Assembly: GCF_026625885.1 (NCBI RefSeq)
Contig: NZ_CP113068.1
Location: forward strand, 372,001-436,000
Origin: Roseateles sp. SL47
Lineage (GTDB): Bacteria > Pseudomonadota > Gammaproteobacteria > Burkholderiales > Burkholderiaceae_C
Direction: 5' to 3'
DNA length: 64,000 bases
Positions 39,330 through 59,295 of the stretch are shown here, one piece after another; positions within the stretch are counted from its first letter, which is position 1; every line of letters begins with the position of its first letter. A program made the translations under genes and the position numbers. The notes beneath the pieces are model-generated. The model searched no databases. It worked only from the letters and a program-made list of their open reading frames with translations, and was not told the DNA's origin.

Positions 39330-40658
39330 GTGAAAGATCCCAACCCTTGTCACATCGTCGGCGTGCTGGATGACGGCATGGCCAGCCTGAGTGCCACGGC
39401 CGGCGCACTGATCCGGTCGGCGGATGTGGTCATTGGCGGCAGCCGCACGCTGGAGCTGTTTGGCACCTGGTTCAAGCCGGGCGCCGTGCGGCACGACCTG
39501 ACCGGCGCCTTGAGCCACGTACCGGAGTGGGTGCGCAGCGCGCGTGAACAGTTGCTGCGCTGCGTGGTGCTGGCCACGGGCGACCCCTTGTGCCATGGCA
39601 TTGCGCCCTACCTCGCGCAGCATCTGTGCATCGATGCGCTGGAGATCCATCCCAACCTCTCTACGCTGCAACTGGCGTGTGCACGCATCGGCCTGGCCTG
39701 GCAGGACGCCCGCATTGTGTCGGCCCATGGCAAGGATGCCGGCGAATGGCACCGGGGCAACGGGCCCAGCCATGGCCTGTATCCGCTGGCGCAGGCGCTG
39801 CGCCAGCACGACCGGCTGCTGGTGCTCACCAGCCCCTGCAACAGCCCGGACCGCATTGCCCGTCTATTGAAGGCGGAAGGTCTGGCGGATGACTTCCATA
39901 TGGCCGTGGCCGAACGGCTGCTGCAAGCGGAAGAGCGGGTGTTGCCGCAGCTGTCGCCAGCGGAGGCGGCGGAGATGACGTTTGCCGAGCTGAATGTGGT
40001 GCTGCTGTGGCGCCACGTGCCGGCCCCCCGGCCGGTGCGTTTCGGCCTGCCGGATGCGGCCTATCACCAGCGACAGCCGGAGAAGGGCCTGATCACCAAA
40101 CAGGAAGTGCGGGCGGTCAGTCTGGCCCGCATGCAGTTGCGTGCGGACAGCGTGGTGTGGGATATCGGGGCCGGCTCCGGTTCGGTAGGCCTGGAAGCCG
40201 CCCGCCTGTGCCCGCAGGGGCATGTGCATGCCATCGAGAAAAATGAGGCGGATGTGGCCATTGCCCGCCGCAACCATGAAGCCTTTGGCGTGAGCAACTA
40301 CAGCCTTCACTGGGGCAAGGCCCCGGAAGGGCTGGACACGTGGCCAGCCCCGGACGCCGTGTTCATCGGCGGCTCCGGCGGTGAACTGGCCACGCTGATC
40401 GGCGGCATTCTGGAACGGCTGCGTCCGCAGGGCCGGCTGGTGATGAACTTCGTCACGCTGGAAAACCTGGCCACCGCTACCGCCGCGCTGCAATCGCTGG
40501 TCGACCAGGGGGTGATGTGGGACGTGCTGCAGATCCAGGCGTCCCGCAGCAAGCCGATCCTGCACATGCATCGCATGGTGGCGGAGAACCCGGTGTGGAT
40601 CGTCTGCGCCTGGCGCGGGCAGGCCACTGAAGGCGTCCAGGGAGGCCAGGATGAGTGA
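39330..40658 (+). CDS. cbiET: Bifunctional CbiE-CbiT / precorrin-6Y methyltransferase (CobL-type)
   Basis: 442 residues starting at GTG 39330 with an AAGGAA ribosome site. The N-terminal half is a tetrapyrrole methylase (CbiE: HIVGVLDDGMASLSATAGAL, VVLATGDPLCHGIAPYLAQH), the C-terminal half a class I methyltransferase (CbiT: VSLARMQLRADSVVWDIGAG, SGSVGLEAARL). Together they methylate C5 and C15 and remove the C12 acetate carboxyl. The two activities are separate genes in Salmonella and fused in CobL and here. The stop overlaps cbiL by eight bases. Confidence 0.92.
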   Translation: MKDPNPCHIVGVLDDGMASLSATAGALIRSADVVIGGSRTLELFGTWFKPGAVRHDLTGALSHVPEWVRSAREQLLRCVVLATGDPLCHGIAPYLAQHLCIDALEIHPNLSTLQLACARIGLAWQDARIVSAHGKDAGEWHRGNGPSHGLYPLAQALRQHDRLLVLTSPCNSPDRIARLLKAEGLADDFHMAVAERLLQAEERVLPQLSPAEAAEMTFAELNVVLLWRHVPAPRPVRFGLPDAAYHQRQPEKGLITKQEVRAVSLARMQLRADSVVWDIGAGSGSVGLEAARLCPQGHVHAIEKNEADVAIARRNHEAFGVSNYSLHWGKAPEGLDTWPAPDAVFIGGSGGELATLIGGILERLRPQGRLVMNFVTLENLATATAALQSLVDQGVMWDVLQIQASRSKPILHMHRMVAENPVWIVCAWRGQATEGVQGGQDE

Positions 40659-41505
40659 CACGATCGGCGCGCCCGCATCCGCGCCCGTTAGCGCGCCCGT
40701 GACCGCCGCCACGCGTCCAGGCACCTTGTGGGGGGTGTCGCTGGGGCCGGGCGACCCCGGCCTGATCACACGCGCGGCCTGGCAGGCGCTGCAGCGAACC
40801 GATGCCGTCTGGGTCTATCCCGCCCGCAGCGGCAAGACGCCCAGTTATGCCTTTGACATCGTTCAGCGTGCCGGGCTGACACCGCCGGCCCAGCACACGC
40901 AACTGCTGTTCCCGATGACCCACGACGGCGAGAAACTCGCCCGCGCCTGGTTGAAGGCGGCCGACACGGTGCTGCCGTGGTTGCAATCCGGCCTGGATGT
41001 GTTGTTCCTGGTGGAAGGTGATGCCAGCACTTATGCCACCTTTGGGCATCTGGCACGCACCGTGCGCCATCTGAATGCCGACATTCCGGTGCAGACCATC
41101 GCCGGCGTGAATGCCTTCACCGCCGCGTGTGCCAGCGTGGACACGCCCTTCGCCGAGCAGGACGACACCGTGGCCATCGTGCCGGCGGCTTATGGCGTGA
41201 GTGCAGTGGAGCGCCTGCTGCCGGACTTCGACACGCTGGTGCTGATGAAGATCAAACCGCTGATCGGCGACCTGCTGGATTGGCTGGAGCAGCGTCGACT
41301 GCTGGACGGCGCGCATTTCATTGAACGGGTGGGGGCACCGGACGAGCGGCGCCTCTCCGGGCCCGCCCTGTTGTCGCTGCGCGGAGAGAAGGTCAGTTAT
41401 CTCTCGCTGCTCATCGTCAAGAACCCGCATCGCATTCGCGGTGAACGCATCAAGGGCTGCCTCAAGAAGAGCAGCCCGATTCCGGACGTATTGGAAACGC
41501 CATGA
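40651..41505 (+). CDS. cbiL: Cobalt-precorrin-2 C20-methyltransferase (CbiL/CobI)
   Basis: 284 residues. It has the methylase motif WGVSLGPGDPGLITRAAWQA near residue 26-45, then DAVWVYPARSGKTPSYAFDI, FLVEGDASTYATFGHLARTV and VQTIAGVNAFTAACASVDTP, which mark the CbiL/CobI branch. It uses SAM to methylate C20 of cobalt-precorrin-2. The first 22 residues (Ala/Pro-rich) are not conserved in the family. The start overlaps cbiET and the stop overlaps cbiG by four bases. Confidence 0.93.
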   Translation: MSDTIGAPASAPVSAPVTAATRPGTLWGVSLGPGDPGLITRAAWQALQRTDAVWVYPARSGKTPSYAFDIVQRAGLTPPAQHTQLLFPMTHDGEKLARAWLKAADTVLPWLQSGLDVLFLVEGDASTYATFGHLARTVRHLNADIPVQTIAGVNAFTAACASVDTPFAEQDDTVAIVPAAYGVSAVERLLPDFDTLVLMKIKPLIGDLLDWLEQRRLLDGAHFIERVGAPDERRLSGPALLSLRGEKVSYLSLLIVKNPHRIRGERIKGCLKKSSPIPDVLETP

Positions 41506-42368
41506 CCGCCTCCCAGCCCTCCTCCCCCGCGAACCTCCCCACAGCGACTGCAGGCGCGACCACCGTCGTCACCACCGCCACCTCCACCACGAGTGCCAGC
41601 ACTAGCGCCACGGACCCGCGTGTGTGCATCGTTGCCATCACCAAGCATGGCGCCGCCCAGGCGGCCAAGCTGGCAGCCGCCCTGCCTCAGGCGCAGGTCT
41701 GCACTTCCGCCAAATTCGCCGAGGCCTTTGCCGGCCTGCCCAACACGGTGAAGGCCTATGACGGCGCGCTGCGGGACCAGATCGGCCCGCTGTTTGCCGA
41801 GCAGGACCAGTTGGTGTTCTTTGTGTCGCTCGGCGCCGTCGTGCGGCTGATTGCGCCGCACCTGCGGGACAAGGATGTGGACCCCGGCGTGATCGTGGTC
41901 GATGACGCCGGGCAATACGTCATTCCGGTGCTGTCCGGCCATGTGGGCGGGGCCAACGAATGGAGCGAGCGGGTGGCTGACCTGATCGGCGCCACACCGG
42001 TGCTCACCACCGCGTCCGATGTGGGCAAGACCATTCCGGTGGACATTCTGGGCCGCCATCTCGGCTGGCGGGTGGAAGCGCCGAAGATCAACATCACCCG
42101 GGTCTCCGCCCATGTGGTGAATGGTGAGCCCATCGCATTTGTGCAGGAGGCCGGCAGCCGCCACTGGTGGACACGGCCAACGCCCTTGCCGGGCAACGTG
42201 CATCTGTTTGACCACTTCAAGGACGTCGATCTCTCCCGCTTTGCCGCCGTGCTGTGGGTGACCCATGCGCCGGTGGCGCCCACTCTGTGGGAGCAGTTGC
42301 AGGAGCGGCTGGTGGTCTACCGTCCGCCCGAAGCCAACCAACCGGGCACCCCCGGGGCGGCTGCATGA
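41502..42368 (+). CDS. cbiG: Cobalt-precorrin-5A hydrolase CbiG, N-terminal and central domains
   Basis: 288 residues. After a 45-residue Ala/Thr/Ser-rich start, CbiG-type sequence follows: VCIVAITKHGAAQAAKLAAA, QLVFFVSLGAVVRLIAPHLR, PGVIVVDDAGQYVIPVLSGH and VGGANEWSERVADLIGATPV. CbiG opens the delta-lactone ring with loss of acetaldehyde, specific to the anaerobic route. The C-terminal CbiG/CobE domain is missing here and is supplied by the next gene, which overlaps by four bases, so CbiG is split in two. Confidence 0.9.
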   Translation: MTASQPSSPANLPTATAGATTVVTTATSTTSASTSATDPRVCIVAITKHGAAQAAKLAAALPQAQVCTSAKFAEAFAGLPNTVKAYDGALRDQIGPLFAEQDQLVFFVSLGAVVRLIAPHLRDKDVDPGVIVVDDAGQYVIPVLSGHVGGANEWSERVADLIGATPVLTTASDVGKTIPVDILGRHLGWRVEAPKINITRVSAHVVNGEPIAFVQEAGSRHWWTRPTPLPGNVHLFDHFKDVDLSRFAAVLWVTHAPVAPTLWEQLQERLVVYRPPEANQPGTPGAAA

Positions 42369-42775
42369 CGCCCTTCCTGGTCACCCTGGGCATCGGCTGC
42401 GACCGGGGGACGGCGCAGGCCACGATCCAGGAAGCGGTGGACCTGGCCCTGGCGCAGGCCGGGGTGTTGGCCGGCCAGGTCAAGGCGGTGGCCAGCATCA
42501 CGCTCAAGGCCGATGAACAGGGCCTGCTGGACCTCGCCGCCGCACACGGCTGGCCGCTGCAGTTCTTCCCGCCGGAGGCTCTGGCCGCTGTACCGGTGCC
42601 CAACCCGTCGGAGACCGTTCGCCGCCACACCGGCACGCCCTCTGTCAGCGAGGCGGCCGCCCTGCTGGCCGCCGGCCCCCACACCCCCATGACCGCACTG
42701 GTGCTGGAGAAACTGCGCCACCGCGGCAACGATGGCCGCCACGCCACCGTATCGATTGCAAGGAAAACGCCATGA
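42365..42775 (+). CDS. cobE: CobE/CbiG C-terminal domain protein
   Basis: 136 residues from ATG 42365 (ATGA overlap with cbiG). It starts LVTLGIGCDRGTAQATIQEA and continues KAVASITLKADEQGLLDLAA, with VSEAAALLAA near the end, the CbiG C-terminal/CobE fold. As a separate protein next to a CbiG lacking this domain it probably completes the hydrolase. The stop overlaps cbiH by four bases. Confidence 0.88.
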   Translation: MTPFLVTLGIGCDRGTAQATIQEAVDLALAQAGVLAGQVKAVASITLKADEQGLLDLAAAHGWPLQFFPPEALAAVPVPNPSETVRRHTGTPSVSEAAALLAAGPHTPMTALVLEKLRHRGNDGRHATVSIARKTP

Positions 42776-43782
42776 CACAGGACACCCCCGCAGCCGCAGC
42801 CCCCAGCGCCGGAAAGATCATGCTGGTGGGCATCGGCCCCGGCAGCGTGGAGCACATGACCCAACGCGCGCGTGATGCCATTGCCGAGGCCGATGTGGTC
42901 ATCGGCTATGTCACCTACATCAAGCTGGTGGCCGATCTCATCGAGGGCAAGGAGATCATCCGCAAATCCATGACGGAAGAGCTGGACCGGGCAGTGAGCG
43001 CTCTGGAAGCCGCCCGGCAGGGCAAGAAGGTGGCCCTCATCTCATCGGGTGATGCCGGGGTGTACGGCATGGCCGGCCCGACCTATGAAGTGCTGTTCCA
43101 GGCCGGATGGACGCCCGAAGACACGGTGCAGGTGGAGATCATCCCCGGCGCGTCGGCACTGAACAGCTGCGCGGCCCTGGTCGGTGCACCGCTGACGCAT
43201 GACTTCTGCGCCATCTCGTTGTCCGACCTGCTCACCCCCTGGCCCACCATTGCCCGCCGGCTCGATGCCGTGGCCATGGCCGACTTTGTGGTGGCGCTCT
43301 ACAACCCGAAGAGCGGCCGCCGCACCCGGCAGATCGTGGAAGCGCAGCGGCTGTTCCTGCGGCACCGTCGGGCGGACACGCCAGTGGCCATCGTCAAGAG
43401 TGGCTATCGGCGCCGACAGAACATCGTCTTCACCACGCTGGACCAGATGGCGGAGGCGGACATTGGCATGCTCAGCACCGTGCTCATCGGCAACAGCAAC
43501 ACCTTCATCCGCCACGGGCTGATGGTGACACCACGGGGTTATGCCAACAAATACGACATGGCCGATGGCGGCAGCACGCGTGAAGGTGAGAAGGCGGGAC
43601 GTTCCTTGTCCACCGGGCTGCTGGGCTGGCTGCAGCAGGTGAAGCTGGAGCATGCAGAAGGGGCGGACGTCGCCGCGCTGGCCCGGCGCCATCGCCTGCC
43701 GGAAGACTACATTGCCGAGGTGCTGGCCGAGCCGGAAGAGGCCCTGGAAGAACCCGCGCAGGCCGAGGAGGATGTGGCATGA
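42772..43782 (+). CDS. cbiH: Cobalt-precorrin-3 C17-methyltransferase (CbiH/CobJ) with C-terminal extension
   Basis: 336 residues. The first 260 are a standard methylase of this branch: IMLVGIGPGSVEHMTQRARD (about residues 13-32), ISSGDAGVYGMAGPTYEVLF, IIPGASALNSCAALVGAPLT and FVVALYNPKSGRRTRQIVEA. It methylates C17 and contracts the ring. The last 75 residues (LGWLQQVKLEHAEGADVAAL, LPEDYIAEVLAEPEEALEEP) are additional, with a small helical unit and an acidic end. No iron-sulfur motif is seen in this extension. The stop overlaps the ferredoxin gene by four bases. Confidence 0.92.
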   Translation: MTQDTPAAAAPSAGKIMLVGIGPGSVEHMTQRARDAIAEADVVIGYVTYIKLVADLIEGKEIIRKSMTEELDRAVSALEAARQGKKVALISSGDAGVYGMAGPTYEVLFQAGWTPEDTVQVEIIPGASALNSCAALVGAPLTHDFCAISLSDLLTPWPTIARRLDAVAMADFVVALYNPKSGRRTRQIVEAQRLFLRHRRADTPVAIVKSGYRRRQNIVFTTLDQMAEADIGMLSTVLIGNSNTFIRHGLMVTPRGYANKYDMADGGSTREGEKAGRSLSTGLLGWLQQVKLEHAEGADVAALARRHRLPEDYIAEVLAEPEEALEEPAQAEEDVA

Positions 43783-53385: not shown

Positions 53386-56043
53386 ATGACGCCACGTACG
53401 CCTCGGTCTCTTCGCCGCCCCGCCGCCCTGGTGGCCGCCAGCGCCCTCTTCTGCCTGACCCTCGCCTTGACCGCCTGTGGCGGCGGCGGTTCCGACACGG
53501 CGTCTGCCACCCCAGCGGCTGCAGCCGCATCCGACGCTGGCAGCGCCGCAAGCCTGGCAGCGCAAGTGCAGTTGCAGCCCACCTACCACCTGTCTCCGGT
53601 GCTGCCAGGCGACCCGAGCGATGTGGACCGCAACGGCAGTTCGGCCAGTGCCTACATGCAGCCGCGTTCGGTGGACATTCCGGCATCGCGTCAGGGCATC
53701 AACACCCGCGCGCTGACATTCCAGGAACTGGAAGACGGCAACGCACGAGCGCGCGCCCTGGGCGCTGGCTCCACGACAACGACTCCGCAGGCTGCCGCTG
53801 CCACCAGCGTCACCTACACGCCGGCGCAGATTCGCGCGGCTTACGGACTGCCGCCGGTCCCCACCAGCCTGACCGGGCTGACCGCCCTGCAAGCCGCGCA
53901 GCTGGGTGCGGGGCAGACCGTCTATGTGGTTGATGCCTTCCACGACACGTATGCCTTCAACGAACTGGCCGCGTTCAGCAGCCAGTTCGGCCTGCCGGCC
54001 TGCACGAAGAAGACGCTGGCCACCACCGCCGCCCTGCCGCTGGCGGCTCCCAGCACCACGCAGCCCGGTTGCGAGTTCTATCAGGTCGCCAGCACCTCCA
54101 GCGGCACGGTGGCGGCCACCTTCCCGCGCTACGACGCCCAGTGGGCCACCGAGATCGCCCTCGATGTGCAGTGGGTGCATGCGATTGCACCACTGGCCCG
54201 CATCGTGCTGGTGGAAGCCTCGGACGCCAGCATGGCAGCGATGAATGGCGCCATCCAACTGGCCAACCGCATGGGCCCAGGGGTGATGTCGATGAGCTTC
54301 GGCGCGCCGGAAGGCAGCTACGTCAGCAGCCTGGACGCTCTCTTCAAGACCCCCGGCATGAGCTACTTTGCCGCCACCGGCGACAACGGCACGGCGGTGA
54401 ACTGGCCGGCGGCTTCGCCCAACGTCGTGGCGGTGGGCGGTACCAGCCTGCGCTACAGCGGTACCGGCAGCCGCACCGAAACCGCCTGGTCGCTGGCCGG
54501 CGGCGGCATCAGCGCCTATGTGGCCTTGCCGAGCTATCAGAACGCAACCCTGCTGCGCACCACCGGCATCACGCGCCGCTCCGTGGCCGATGTGTCGATG
54601 AATGCCGATCCGACGACCGGCCATTACGTGGCGATCATTCCCAATCAATCGACCTGCACCTTCTGCCAGGTGAGCTGGGTGACGACCGGCGGCACCAGCC
54701 TCTCCACCCCGCTATGGGCCGGCTTGACGGCCGTGGCCAATGCACTGCGTGCGCAGGCGGGCAAGGGCCCCATCGGCGCAGCGCATGCCACGCTGTACCA
54801 GGCCATGGCCAACACCACCACCTACACGAGCGCCTTCCTGGACGTGGTGCAGGGCGCCAATGGCAGTTGCAGCACCTGTGCGGCCAAGGCCGGCTATGAC
54901 GGCCCCACCGGACTGGGGACGCCCAACGGGCTCGCGATGCTGAGCCTGCTGACCAACAGTGCCGGAGCCACGTCGACGCCCACGGCGCCGGTCGCCCCCA
55001 CCGTGGCGTCCGCCACCGTCAACGGTGCGTACGGTCAGGCCATCAGCTTCACACCGTCGGTGTCCAGCGCCAATGCGTTCACCCTCTCGCTGACCGGTGC
55101 TCCGGCCGGCATGGTGTTGTCGGGCACGCTGGTCAACTGGCCCAGCCCGGTCACGGGTACCTTCAAGGTGAACGTCGTTGCCAGGGATGCGAAGACCGGC
55201 CTCACCGGGACGGGTGTGTACACCGTGGTCGTGACACCGCCGCCGCCGCCCATCGTCGGCAACGGCAGCCTGACCGCCACCGTCGGCAAGGCCCTGAGCT
55301 TTGCGGTAGGCGCGGCAGACCGCTACCCCGTCAAGCTCAGCCTGGTGGGCGCGCCGGCCGGCATGACCCTGACCACCACCACCGGCTCCAATGTCGGCAC
55401 CGTCAATTGGCCCAAGCCCTTGGCGGGCATCTTCCGTTTCGGTGTGCGGGCCGACTCCACCCGGACGGGACTGTGGACCCAGGGCACCTACACGGTAGTG
55501 GTGAACCCAGTGGCGGCACCGCAGGTCGCCACCGGCCAGCTCGCCGCACGCACCGGATCGGCTTGGAGTGCTTCGGTCCATGTGGTGGCAGCCAACCCGT
55601 ACACGCTCAGCCTGACGGGCGCACCCGCCGGATTGACCATCAATGGTGCCGGCCTTCTCTCCTGGGCCTCGCCAGTGGCCGGCACCTATGCCATCACTGT
55701 GCAGGCGCGCGACACCAAAACCGGCGTGGTCGGCAGTGGTGTGATCAACCTGGTGGTGGGCAGCGGCACCGGCCCTGCCGTGTTCAGCACCGTGATGACC
55801 GGTGTGGTGGGAAAACCGCTGAACGGCACGATCCTGATCACCGATGCCACGGCGAGCCTGATGGGTGTCGGCTTCAGCGCCAATCAGGCCGGCATCAAGT
55901 TCACCACGGCCCTGGGCATGGGCACCACCACGGTCAGTTGGCCGACACCGGTGACCGGCAACTACACCATCCTGGTGTCGGTGACGGATTCGGTGGGCAA
56001 GAGCACGGTGGCGTCCATCCCGGTGGTGATCAACGCCAAGTGA
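53386..56043 (+). CDS. S53 family serine peptidase (sedolisin), lipoprotein, with Ig-like repeats
   Basis: 885 residues. The N-terminus has a lipobox (LTLALTACGGG). The catalytic domain contains ATEIALDVQWVHAIAPLARI with the Glu/Asp pair (about residues 256 and 260), SYFAATGDNGTAVNWPAASP with the oxyanion Asp, and GGTSLSTPLWAG with the nucleophile Ser (about 437), the sedolisin signature. After about residue 530 come four repeats of about 80 residues (for example LSLTGAPAGMVLSGTLVNWP and TYTVVV-type ends), putative Ig domains. Sedolisins are acid-active endopeptidases. A typical long S53 propeptide is not obvious between the lipobox and the core. Confidence 0.88.
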   Translation: MTPRTPRSLRRPAALVAASALFCLTLALTACGGGGSDTASATPAAAAASDAGSAASLAAQVQLQPTYHLSPVLPGDPSDVDRNGSSASAYMQPRSVDIPASRQGINTRALTFQELEDGNARARALGAGSTTTTPQAAAATSVTYTPAQIRAAYGLPPVPTSLTGLTALQAAQLGAGQTVYVVDAFHDTYAFNELAAFSSQFGLPACTKKTLATTAALPLAAPSTTQPGCEFYQVASTSSGTVAATFPRYDAQWATEIALDVQWVHAIAPLARIVLVEASDASMAAMNGAIQLANRMGPGVMSMSFGAPEGSYVSSLDALFKTPGMSYFAATGDNGTAVNWPAASPNVVAVGGTSLRYSGTGSRTETAWSLAGGGISAYVALPSYQNATLLRTTGITRRSVADVSMNADPTTGHYVAIIPNQSTCTFCQVSWVTTGGTSLSTPLWAGLTAVANALRAQAGKGPIGAAHATLYQAMANTTTYTSAFLDVVQGANGSCSTCAAKAGYDGPTGLGTPNGLAMLSLLTNSAGATSTPTAPVAPTVASATVNGAYGQAISFTPSVSSANAFTLSLTGAPAGMVLSGTLVNWPSPVTGTFKVNVVARDAKTGLTGTGVYTVVVTPPPPPIVGNGSLTATVGKALSFAVGAADRYPVKLSLVGAPAGMTLTTTTGSNVGTVNWPKPLAGIFRFGVRADSTRTGLWTQGTYTVVVNPVAAPQVATGQLAARTGSAWSASVHVVAANPYTLSLTGAPAGLTINGAGLLSWASPVAGTYAITVQARDTKTGVVGSGVINLVVGSGTGPAVFSTVMTGVVGKPLNGTILITDATASLMGVGFSANQAGIKFTTALGMGTTTVSWPTPVTGNYTILVSVTDSVGKSTVASIPVVINAK

Positions 56044-56271
56044 TGGAACTGCATCCGGAGAAGGGCAGCGCCGGAAGGCGCTGCCTGGAGGGTGTGATGC
56101 AGGGTCACCGGTGAACCGTTGGCATCCGGCGACGCACAGACGCTGGAACCCGCGGACGCGACCTGCGCGCATGCACCGCCCATGGGGCCGTGCGGCCGCA
56201 GCGAGCCCTGCTACAAGCGGGCCTGCGGCTTCACACATTCACGTCCTCTCTCCTCTGCATGGAGTTCACTG

Positions 56272-56571
56272 ATGAACCGTTCTGTCACGCCCCTGTCTGC
56301 AGCGGCGCTCGCGCTGGCTTTGACCACGGCCTTCGCCACCCTGCCGGCCGCAGCGCAATCCAAAGACAAAGAGAAGTGTTTCGGTGTCGCCCTCAAAGGC
56401 AAGAATGATTGCGCCGCTGGTGCGGGCACCACCTGCGCAGGCACCTCCCAAACGGACCATCAGGCGGATGCCTGGTCCTACGTGCCCAAGGGCACCTGCG
56501 AAAAAACGGTCTCCAGGACCTCCCCCACCGGCTTCGGCCAGTTGATGGCATTCAAGGCCGAGAAGCGCTGA
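56272..56571 (+). CDS. bufA1: Bufferin-1-type precursor, DUF2282 (BufA1)
   Basis: 99 residues. Signal peptide ([19 protein letters not shown]) followed by a small Cys-rich core [20 protein letters not shown] then [20 protein letters not shown] and KGTCEK, with four Cys in the DUF2282 spacing. In the studied family the core Cys residues are modified by the partner MNIO enzyme and the exported product binds copper. The gene lies 16 bases before the partner gene (56588), the canonical order. The ATG at 56272 was chosen for the signal peptide; the open frame goes further upstream. Confidence 0.9.
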
Positions 56572-56587
56572 GCGCCGGGGCCGCCAG

Positions 56588-57469
56588 ATGCATGCCACAC
56601 CTTCCCGGCTCCCGGCCCGATCGGGCATCGGGCTCAAGCCGCAGCATGTCCACCAGGTGCTGGACACACGGCCTGACATCGGCTTCTTCGAGGTCCATGC
56701 CGAGAACTACATGGTGCCAGGCGGCCCCTTTCATCACGGCCTGAGCCGCATTCGTGAGCACTATCCCCTGTCGTTGCACGGTGTGGGGCTCAATCTGGGT
56801 GGGCTGGATGCATTGGATGAGCTCCACCTGAACCGACTGGCCGAGCTGTTGAAGCGTTATGAGCCTGCCGCGTTTTCCGAACACCTGGCATGGACCCACC
56901 ACGGCGGGGTGTACTTCAATGACCTGCTGCCGCTGCCCTACCACCCGGCGGCCCTCGACCGGGTGTGTGATCGCATCGATCAAGCGCAGGAACGGCTGGG
57001 GCGACGCCTTTTGCTGGAAAACCCGTCCACGTATCTGGCGTCGTCCGCATCCACGATGAGTGAAGCCCAGTTTCTCACCGAGGTTCTCCGGCGCACCGGT
57101 TGCGGCCTGCTGCTGGACATAAGCAATGCCTATGTCTCCTGCGTCAACCATGGGTGGGATGTGACCCGCTACCTCAACGATCTGCCCCTGACGGCGGTGG
57201 GAGAAGTGCACCTCGCGGGATTCTCCCGAAGTGAGGACGCTAGCGGTGCGCCGCTGTTGATCGACAACCATGGCAGCCCGGTGGACGCCGCAGTGTGGCG
57301 CTTGTTCAGCGATGTGGTGGCGCGCATCGGTAGCGTCCCCACCCTGCTGGAACGGGACCATCACATTCCAAGCTTTGATGCCCTGTATGCCGAGGCGAAG
57401 TTTGCGGAACGGCTGCTGCGTGGCAGCAGCCACGAAGCGGTGGTGCCGCAAGAACAGGTGGCGTCATGA
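56588..57469 (+). CDS. bufB: MNIO-family (DUF692) peptide-modifying enzyme BufB
   Basis: 293 residues of the DUF692/MNIO family, TIM-barrel oxygenases with two or three iron ions. Typical segments: SGIGLKPQHVHQVLDTRPDI near the start, FFEVHAENYMVPGG, SLHGVGLNLGGLDALDELHL, AFSEHLAWTHHGGVYFNDLL, LLLENPSTYLASSASTM and GLLLDISNAYVSCVNHGWD, with conserved His, Glu, Asp and Asn metal positions. In bufferin loci it modifies precursor Cys residues. Overlaps bufC by four bases. Confidence 0.93.
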   Translation: MHATPSRLPARSGIGLKPQHVHQVLDTRPDIGFFEVHAENYMVPGGPFHHGLSRIREHYPLSLHGVGLNLGGLDALDELHLNRLAELLKRYEPAAFSEHLAWTHHGGVYFNDLLPLPYHPAALDRVCDRIDQAQERLGRRLLLENPSTYLASSASTMSEAQFLTEVLRRTGCGLLLDISNAYVSCVNHGWDVTRYLNDLPLTAVGEVHLAGFSRSEDASGAPLLIDNHGSPVDAAVWRLFSDVVARIGSVPTLLERDHHIPSFDALYAEAKFAERLLRGSSHEAVVPQEQVAS

Positions 57470-58239
57470 ACCTCGACGAAGAAGCATGGCACGGCCCTTT
57501 GGCGCGCGCCCTGCTGGACCCTCGTGAGGCAGGGCCCGCGTCGCTGCACACCTCAAACGGGTCCGCTGTCTCCACCCGGTTGGCGGTCTACCGGAACAAT
57601 GTGATGGCCAGCCTGATCAACGGGCTGGCGGAGACGTTTCCCGTGGTGCAGGCGTTGGTGGGCGAGGCCTTTTTTCGAACCCTGGCCGCGCGTTTTGTGC
57701 GCGCCGCCCCCCCGCGCTCACCGGTGCTCTGCGAGTACGGCGCAGGCTTTGCGGACTTTGTGGCGAGCTTCGAGCCCGCCGCGTCCGTGCCCTATCTACG
57801 GGATGTGGCGCGCCTGGAATGGCTGCGCGTGCGGGCGTATCACGCGGCGGACGCCTCGCCGGTGGCGCGGTCGGTGTTCCAGAACGCTGCGGCGCTGGGG
57901 GACGCCTTGAATGGGGTCACCGTGCGGCTTCACCCTTCTGTCCATGGGTTCGAAGCCCCCTGGGCGGCAGTCTCCATCTGGGCCGCCCATCAAGGCAGCG
58001 GCATGCTGGAGCAGGTGGCGGTCGAGTTGCCGGAATACGCGCTGGTGCTGCGCGCCCCTCTGGAGGTGCTGGTGCTGCCGACTTCGGAAGCAACGGTGCG
58101 GTTTGTCCAGGCACTCCAGGCCATGGAACCCTTGGGGGCTGCGGCAGCGGCTGCACAGGCTCATGACCCCGACTTCGCGCTGAGCGCCGTGCTGGCGCAG
58201 CTGCTGGCCTGGGGGGCCATCCACGATCTCGTCACCTGA
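57466..58239 (+). CDS. bufC: BufC, DUF2063 domain recognition partner
   Basis: 257 residues. The N-terminal DUF2063 half shows ALLDPREAGPASLHTSNGSA, STRLAVYRNNVMASLINGLA, ETFPVVQALVGEAFFRTLAA and RFVRAAPPRSPVLCEYGAG; the rest is helical and beta segments (PYLRDVARLEWLRVRAYHAA). These proteins help the MNIO enzyme bind the precursor. It overlaps bufB by four bases and follows the order bufA-B-C. No DoxX gene (sometimes called bufD) follows. Confidence 0.9.
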   Translation: MNLDEEAWHGPLARALLDPREAGPASLHTSNGSAVSTRLAVYRNNVMASLINGLAETFPVVQALVGEAFFRTLAARFVRAAPPRSPVLCEYGAGFADFVASFEPAASVPYLRDVARLEWLRVRAYHAADASPVARSVFQNAAALGDALNGVTVRLHPSVHGFEAPWAAVSIWAAHQGSGMLEQVAVELPEYALVLRAPLEVLVLPTSEATVRFVQALQAMEPLGAAAAAAQAHDPDFALSAVLAQLLAWGAIHDLVT

Positions 58240-58518
58240 TGCCAGTGGCCGCGTCGCGCGGCAAACGGTTCAGCAGTTGCCGGCCACGGAAGGGGCCTCT
58301 CGCAGCCGATCTGGTGGTGCCCTGGACAGTCGCAGGGACGATGGCCGCCAGCCTTCCCGCCCCCTCTCTTCTGGGCGACACCCGGCTTTCTCCTTGGATG
58401 CTGGTTGAGACCGGCCCGAGCGAGAGACGTCAAAACGCGGGCCACCCACTACCGTTGCATCGTGAGGGGCCATGCCCCATTGCAACGCCTGCGGGCCCAC
58501 TTTTTGAAAGAAGACACC

Positions 58519-59295
58519 ATGCGCAAATTTCTCCACAGCCTGATCGCCGTGAGCACGCTGAGCCTCGCGGCCACGGCCGCCGTCGCCGCAGACCCGAAGC
58601 CGACCATCGTGCTGGTCCATGGCGCGTTTGCCGGTTCCTCCAGCTGGAACGGCGTCGTCGGCGAGCTGTCCAAGAAGGGCTACACCGTGGTCGCAGCGGC
58701 GAACCCGCTGCGCGGCGTGGCCAGCGACGGGGCCTATGTGGCGGCACTGGCGAAGTCCATCAACGGCCCGGTGGTGCTGGTGGGGCATTCGTACGGGGGC
58801 GCGGTGATCACGGCGGCGGCCAATGGTCTGCCCAACGTCAAGGCGCTGGTCTATGTGGCGGCCTTTGCGCCGGACCAGGGGGAGAGCGCGCTGGACCTGA
58901 CCGGCAAGTTCCCCGGTTCGACCCTGCCACCGACCCTGGCCGCACCGGTGAAGCTGCCCGATGGCGGTGAAGATCTGTACGTGCAGCAGGACAAGTTCCC
59001 CAAGCAGTTCGCGGCCGATGTGCCGCTGGCGCAGGCCCGCGCCATGGCCGCGACCCAGCGACCGGTCGCGACCGCAGCATTGAAGGAAGCCGCACCGGCG
59101 CCGGCCTGGAAGACGGTGCCGAGCTGGTCCATCTACGGCACGGGTGACCTGAACATTCCCCCCCAGGCCATGGCCTTCATGGCTGAGCGTGCGCAGTCCA
59201 AGAAGACCGTGGTGCTGAAGAACGGCTCCCATGCGCTGATGGTGTCGCATCCGCGAGAAGTGGCGGCGCTGATCCAGGAAGCGGCTGGGAGCTGA
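58519..59295 (+). CDS. Secreted alpha/beta hydrolase
   Basis: 258 residues from ATG 58519. Signal peptide (FLHSLIAVSTLSLAATAAVA) leads into an alpha/beta hydrolase: TIVLVHGAFAGSSSW (oxyanion), the nucleophile elbow VVLVGHSYGGAV with Ser near residue 95, and GSHALMVSHPREVAALIQEA with the catalytic His. The sequence TPHxVLVHGAFAGxSW with GHSYGG is common in the family of esterase-like proteins often found in betaproteobacteria; the substrate is unknown. The gene stands alone with about 280 bases before it. Confidence 0.87.
   Translation: MRKFLHSLIAVSTLSLAATAAVAADPKPTIVLVHGAFAGSSSWNGVVGELSKKGYTVVAAANPLRGVASDGAYVAALAKSINGPVVLVGHSYGGAVITAAANGLPNVKALVYVAAFAPDQGESALDLTGKFPGSTLPPTLAAPVKLPDGGEDLYVQQDKFPKQFAADVPLAQARAMAATQRPVATAALKEAAPAPAWKTVPSWSIYGTGDLNIPPQAMAFMAERAQSKKTVVLKNGSHALMVSHPREVAALIQEAAGS

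Follow-up and report, generated by a model that had tools for sequence, protein, structure and literature searches.

The window, a 64,000-nt stretch of the Roseateles sp. SL47 genome, contains three adjacent genes, bufA1, bufB, and bufC (Table 1; coordinates without a prefix are window positions). The intergenic distance between bufA1 and bufB is 16 bp, and the start of bufC overlaps the stop of bufB by 4 bp. Open reading frames and family profiles confirmed the genes, order, tight spacing, coordinates, and strand given in the original prediction, and the DUF2282, MbnB_TglH_ChrH, and DUF2063 matches all lie far above the Pfam cut-offs. The features of Buf1 membership found here are a four-cysteine DUF2282 precursor, an adjoining MNIO enzyme, and an adjoining DUF2063 partner; doxX is absent. 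Judged by its sequence, the trio belongs to the published class of Buf1-type bufferin clusters, and the proposal of a Buf1 operon with an MNIO enzyme and a PME-type 1 partner, without doxX, was supported.

Table 1. Features of the window bufferin locus and of the module beside the second cluster
Feature	Location	Strand	Basis
Left flank, long protein	53386-56043	+	No Pfam or NCBIfam match at E 1e-3
Extra segment with bufABC, ~2.5 kb	56042-58505		Absent between the same flanks in G003 and G009
bufA1 leader	56044-56271	+	GGAG before ATG, inverted repeat; both by eye
bufA1, Buf1 bufferin precursor, 99 aa	56272-56571	+	PF10048, 84.6 bits, cut-off 22.4; alignment
bufB, MNIO-family bufferin maturase	56588-57469	+	PF05114, 343.9 bits; NF050167, 373.5 bits, cut-off 310
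bufC, DUF2063 (PME-type 1) partner	57466-58239	+	PF09836, 85.9 bits
Right flank, alpha/beta hydrolase	58519-59295	+	PF12697, 96.5 bits on longer frame 58405-59292
Two NrsF-type genes flanking a sigma-factor-like frame	L121 6681-8640 = G000:C1:5536680-5538639		170.9 + 243.4 bits

Precursor and maturation enzymes

The N terminus of BufA1 is hydrophobic and ends in AAAQ, an apparent Sec signal peptide as judged by eye. Homology at E ≤ 1e-3 was found for 5,168 of 5,201 candidates (120 of these matches are listed), so a chance match to the family is out of the question. In NCBIfam, BufA1 scored under every bufferin cut-off (BufA2, 24.5 bits against a cut-off of 60). Its core is 76 to 84% identical to that of its best relatives, over 65 to 71% of its length.

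The original prediction held that the four cysteines (Cys36, Cys47, Cys55, and Cys76) have surroundings of their own, KEKC, KNDC, TTC, and KGTC, and that the modification pattern could therefore differ. The contexts had been read correctly, but they are not peculiar to this copy. In a BufA alignment of 18 rows (17 of them different; the window protein is present twice), NDC at Cys47, TTC at Cys55, and GTC at Cys76 are invariant; at Cys36, 14 rows have EKC and 2 each have DKC and EHC. We also compared 86 precursors, comprising the window copy, a resident copy in the same genome, and those of 80 named loci, some of which have several. KEKC occurs in 37 of these precursors, KNDC in 59, GTTC in 58, and KGTC in 45, and all 86, the window copy included, share the spacing C-10-C-7-C-20-C. 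The named loci were retrieved by patterns spanning the first two cysteines, so conservation at those two is partly selected; the patterns did not dictate the contexts of the third and fourth cysteines or the spacing. Because contexts and spacing are common across the family, the claim of altered modification is unsupported, and the cysteine surroundings were ruled out as a cause. In Buf1 bufferins, the modification is described on the central two cysteines, with a disulfide between the outer two (PMC12452194, in the part cited here).

BufB passes the NCBIfam bufferin maturase model and matches the MNIO structures 3bww, 8hci, and 7dz9. Twelve of its columns are identical in all 81 aligned rows, window included: H64, H99, E144, N145, D177, N180, N187, H208, D226, H228, E255, and D257. 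We take the iron-binding roles to be assigned among these invariant His, Asp, Glu, and Asn columns. Missing MNIO active-site residues had been named as evidence against the original prediction; the invariant columns are all kept. D257 is probably the counterpart of FonB-Asp249, for which a role as catalytic base has been proposed (PMC13097082, in part), because the 3bww alignment at this position reads LLERDF. The window BufB has rare residues at N69 (Ser in 80 of 81 rows), R129 (His in 78), and S152 (Phe in 73). It departs from columns that are at least 90% conserved at 7 positions, and 14 of the 80 other rows have at least 7 such departures. BufC scored 54.5 bits against the NCBIfam HvfC model NF050145, below the cut-off of 142.

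The two enzymes and the precursor were also analyzed by relative-rate comparisons, which share sequences and are not independent. Private changes exceeded those of the sister in 8 of 8 comparisons for BufB (chi-square 1.4 to 14.0, over 3.84 in 5) and in 5 of 6 for BufC (over 3.84 in 3), one of the latter by only 23 versus 22; in the sixth, the count was 26 versus 27. Together, BufB and BufC gave a chi-square above 3.84 in 8 of 14 comparisons. For BufA1, private changes were in excess in 5 of 8 comparisons, and chi-square exceeded 3.84 in none. The window tip in the BufB tree is long (0.5 versus 0.14 and 0.17), which together with the surplus of private changes suggests possible relaxed constraint. 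Such a pattern would be expected of two enzymes that evolve moderately faster or under relaxed constraint alongside a conserved peptide.

Absence of doxX and of the family promoter

The genome contains two DoxX matches, both outside the window. A tblastn search of the window with DoxX relatives gave weak matches only, the best of which (E 0.008) lies inside bufC; the predicted lack of a DoxX gene was borne out, and nothing convincing remained as a candidate doxX remnant. Among related loci, doxX is present in 72 of 74 and absent in L054 and L077. These 74 remain of the 80 named loci after removal of L043 and L050, whose stretches lack bufC, of L085 and L039, which end too soon after bufC to hold another gene, and of L088 and L115, in which bufB was not found; L114 was kept although a contig end cuts its doxX, a slight lean toward presence. 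Within the genus, 15 other genomes were searched; G009 and G012 gave no DUF2282 match, and the remaining 13 gave 14, each of which lies, by coordinates, no more than 3 kb from a DoxX match. The absence of doxX from the window cluster is therefore both real and uncommon. The cited part of PMC12452194 names doxX beside the other three genes as the cluster core and describes several cluster organizations. Since several organizations exist and no doxX is listed for the Caulobacter cluster CC2907-CC2905 discussed below, we did not treat its absence as a bar to the Buf1 class.

Some of the related loci are arranged in other ways. An uncultured Vibrio (L103, 4983-8600) has four tandem bufA matches followed by a single bufB-bufC-doxX set, and Niveibacterium (L044, 5025-9481) has a full bufABC-doxX cluster followed by a second bufB-bufC pair. 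In Microbulbifer rhizosphaerae (L088, 2520-5932), two bufA matches and doxX are present, and bufB and bufC were not found in the stretch.

The bufA1 leader contains, by eye, the inverted repeat GCAGCGCC-GGAA-GGCGCTGC after the left-flank gene. Of 79 loci, 58 have the motif TGTAA[C/G] in the 350 bases that precede the bufA match (mean of 9.1 and maximum of 14 in 50 mononucleotide shuffles); it was not found in the corresponding region before window bufA1. We also used a two-box model (TGTAAGAA and CGTCTA, separated by 14 or 15 bases), trained on the same loci that it scores. Its score lay above the 95% shuffle level for 61 of the 79 loci and reached 20.9 to 23.2 in L072, L085, and L042. Before window bufA1, the best score for such an ECF-like promoter was -0.27, which 62% of its own shuffles equal or exceed. 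The resident copy scored 1.6, with 61% of shuffles doing as well, because its promoter has the sigma-F form described below. A strict two-box motif at one spacing was not matched anywhere in the genome, no ECF motif was found in 56044-56271 even with up to 2 mismatches allowed, and blastn of the window upstream region against the other loci found nothing on the plus strand at E ≤ 0.1. A sigma-70 consensus scan of 56000-58620 was also empty, which says little, as only 0.1 matches were expected by chance. The original prediction had proposed looking for a copper-responsive promoter upstream of 56272; neither of the two family ECF forms sought was seen there, and the remainder of the search was the sigma-70 consensus scan.

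Among the related loci, the two-box motif TGTAAGAA-N14/15-CG[A/T]CTA (e.g., in L072, L042, and L106) is unlike the sigma-F form GTAACC-N16-CGAA, and many Pseudomonas loci have TGTAACG with TCTCTAG in place of the two-box form. Across the window in its entirety, 38 sites match GTAACC-N16-CGAA when up to 2 mismatches are allowed; the expected number is 25, and none of 100 shuffles reached 38.

Chromosomal site and the second cluster

The left-flank protein, which we take to be an S53/sedolisin-like peptidase, has apparent C-terminal repeats. In a search of 30 genomes, its own included, it was found at 70 to 75% identity in the same-genus genomes G001, G003, G009, and G014, whose corresponding stretches are L119, L117, L118, and L120. 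The right-flank hydrolase has matches of 88 to 91% identity in L117, L118, and L119 and was not found within L120. Blastn blocks shared with L117 and L118 stop at window position 56041 and resume at 58506, and the gap between the flank matches is 130 bases in L117 and 210 bases in L118. In L119, the flanks are ~2.0 kb apart, with a frame that is LysR-like by eye. None of the four stretches has a match to bufA, bufB, or bufC at E ≤ 1e-4.

A BufB tree with 93 rows places the window protein beside L072 and L085 (98/95) and next beside L042 (100/98), all of them Burkholderiales metagenome-assembled genomes. The resident copy joins G001 and G003 of the same genus (100/99). The window BufB groups with none of the nine same-genus rows, six of which adjoin a DUF2282 match; seven of the nine sit on long branches, which the program flags as prone to false joins. 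By quick FastTree distances, BufA is nearest to L042 and L072, but BufC is nearest to L105, L095, and L111, then L072, so BufC does not clearly repeat the BufB grouping. Third-position GC ranges from 0.745 to 0.80 across bufABC and is 0.84 for the left flank, at most weak evidence of import.

The rival reading of these data is an ancestral cluster that was kept in this genome and lost from its same-genus relatives, with no import. We saw no mobile gene in 56042-58505 and no direct repeats of at least 9 bp between 56030-56280 and 58230-58530, which leaves room for loss in the relatives, and the BufC distances point to kin other than those of BufB. Set against this are the lack of buf genes in any of the stretches L117 to L120 and the separation of BufB from every same-genus row in the tree. 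We therefore consider loss from the relatives unlikely; the window cluster was most likely acquired by horizontal transfer.

A second cluster, bufABC-doxX, is resident in the same genome at G000:C1:5534077-5536753. It is followed by an NrsF gene, a 199-aa frame labeled sigma-factor-like by eye, and a second NrsF gene (Table 1); a doubled NrsF is not mentioned in the cited passages of the literature. The sequence GTAACC-N16-CGAA, which is the published sigma-F consensus (PMC3511200, in part), occupies 5533998-5534023, upstream of the resident bufA ATG by 54 to 79 bases. Exact matches across the genome number 2 for this pattern and 8 for the reversed control, so only the position of the resident motif is telling. 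The resident cluster thus has NrsF genes and a predicted sigma-F-type promoter, and no ECF-type promoter was found before the window bufA1.

We take the Caulobacter operon CC3254-CC3257 to be the founding Buf1 cluster. Like the window copy, this sigma-F operon has a DUF2282 precursor, a DUF692/MNIO enzyme, and a DUF2063 protein in the same order (PMC3511200, in part); the window copy differs in having neither doxX nor GTAACC-N16-CGAA, whereas the resident cluster has both. Caulobacter CC2907-CC2906-CC2905 also combines a DUF2282-annotated precursor with DUF692 and DUF2063 proteins, with no doxX listed in the source's table; by description, it is sigma-F dependent (PMC3511200, in part), and the window copy has no such motif upstream. 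The gigPABT operon of Cupriavidus metallidurans, described as copper induced, resembles the window trio in its precursor GigP, with four cysteines and a leader, and in GigB, with DUF2063. It differs, again by description, in its DoxX-like gigT and the divergent ECF sigma gene rpoQ (PMC10304878, in part), neither of which was seen beside the window copy. The captophorins (fontiphorin, oxazolin, and gonophorin) likewise use an MNIO enzyme with PME1, which install 5-thiooxazoles, and bufferins have been proposed as members of this group (PMC13097082, in part); captophorin precursors carry EGKCG repeats, in contrast to the DUF2282 domain of the window precursor.

Predicted function of the window copy

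By content, the window cluster looks like an ordinary Buf1 operon, mildly unusual in that it is probably imported and has neither doxX nor the family promoter. We think it likely that it acts as the characterized members do and is an acquired extra copy without these two elements. The chemistry and copper role of those members (PMC12452194 and PMC13097082, in the parts cited) suggest the following course by analogy. BufB and BufC would modify the precursor in the cytoplasm, where BufB, with iron and O2, would turn Cys47 and Cys55 into 5-thiooxazoles, and Cys36 and Cys76 would pair as a disulfide. The peptide, exported by Sec, would chelate surplus copper and so buffer it in the periplasm. The copy probably arrived, or was left, without doxX and an ECF-like promoter, and with the family promoter missing, it would be read from some other promoter.

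Alternatively, the window cluster might be a decaying or silent extra copy whose promoter and doxX were lost or never present, with relaxed enzymes making little or no modified peptide. The missing family promoter, the long BufB tip, the private changes in BufB and BufC, and the seven departures from conserved BufB columns would all agree with decay. It is nonetheless improbable: the three frames are open, with tight spacing and an overlap, the BufB invariant columns are kept, equal or larger numbers of departures occur in other BufB rows, and the precursor core is conserved with no significant rate excess. A bufferin modified in some other pattern, to which rare BufB residues such as Asn69 and Arg129 might point, is very unlikely given the common cysteine contexts and uniform 10-7-20 spacing.

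Returning to a functional, acquired Buf1 operon, we suggest more tentatively that the genome might hold two independent bufferin systems, one resident with its NrsF/ECF-sigma module and one imported without doxX and the ECF promoter, the latter providing the same chelator chemistry under another signal or constitutively. If so, this genome would be a natural test of the contribution of DoxX, the role of which is left unsettled in the cited parts of PMC13097082, PMC12452194, and PMC10304878, and of the re-regulation of bufferins through transfer alone. The family and its chemistry are already published, and the value here is comparative: with a full sigma-linked cluster and a doxX-less trio in one strain, the roles of DoxX and ECF control could be separated by deletions.

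Elsewhere in the window, frames at 39330-43782 resemble, by eye, a run of cobalamin (precorrin) biosynthesis genes.
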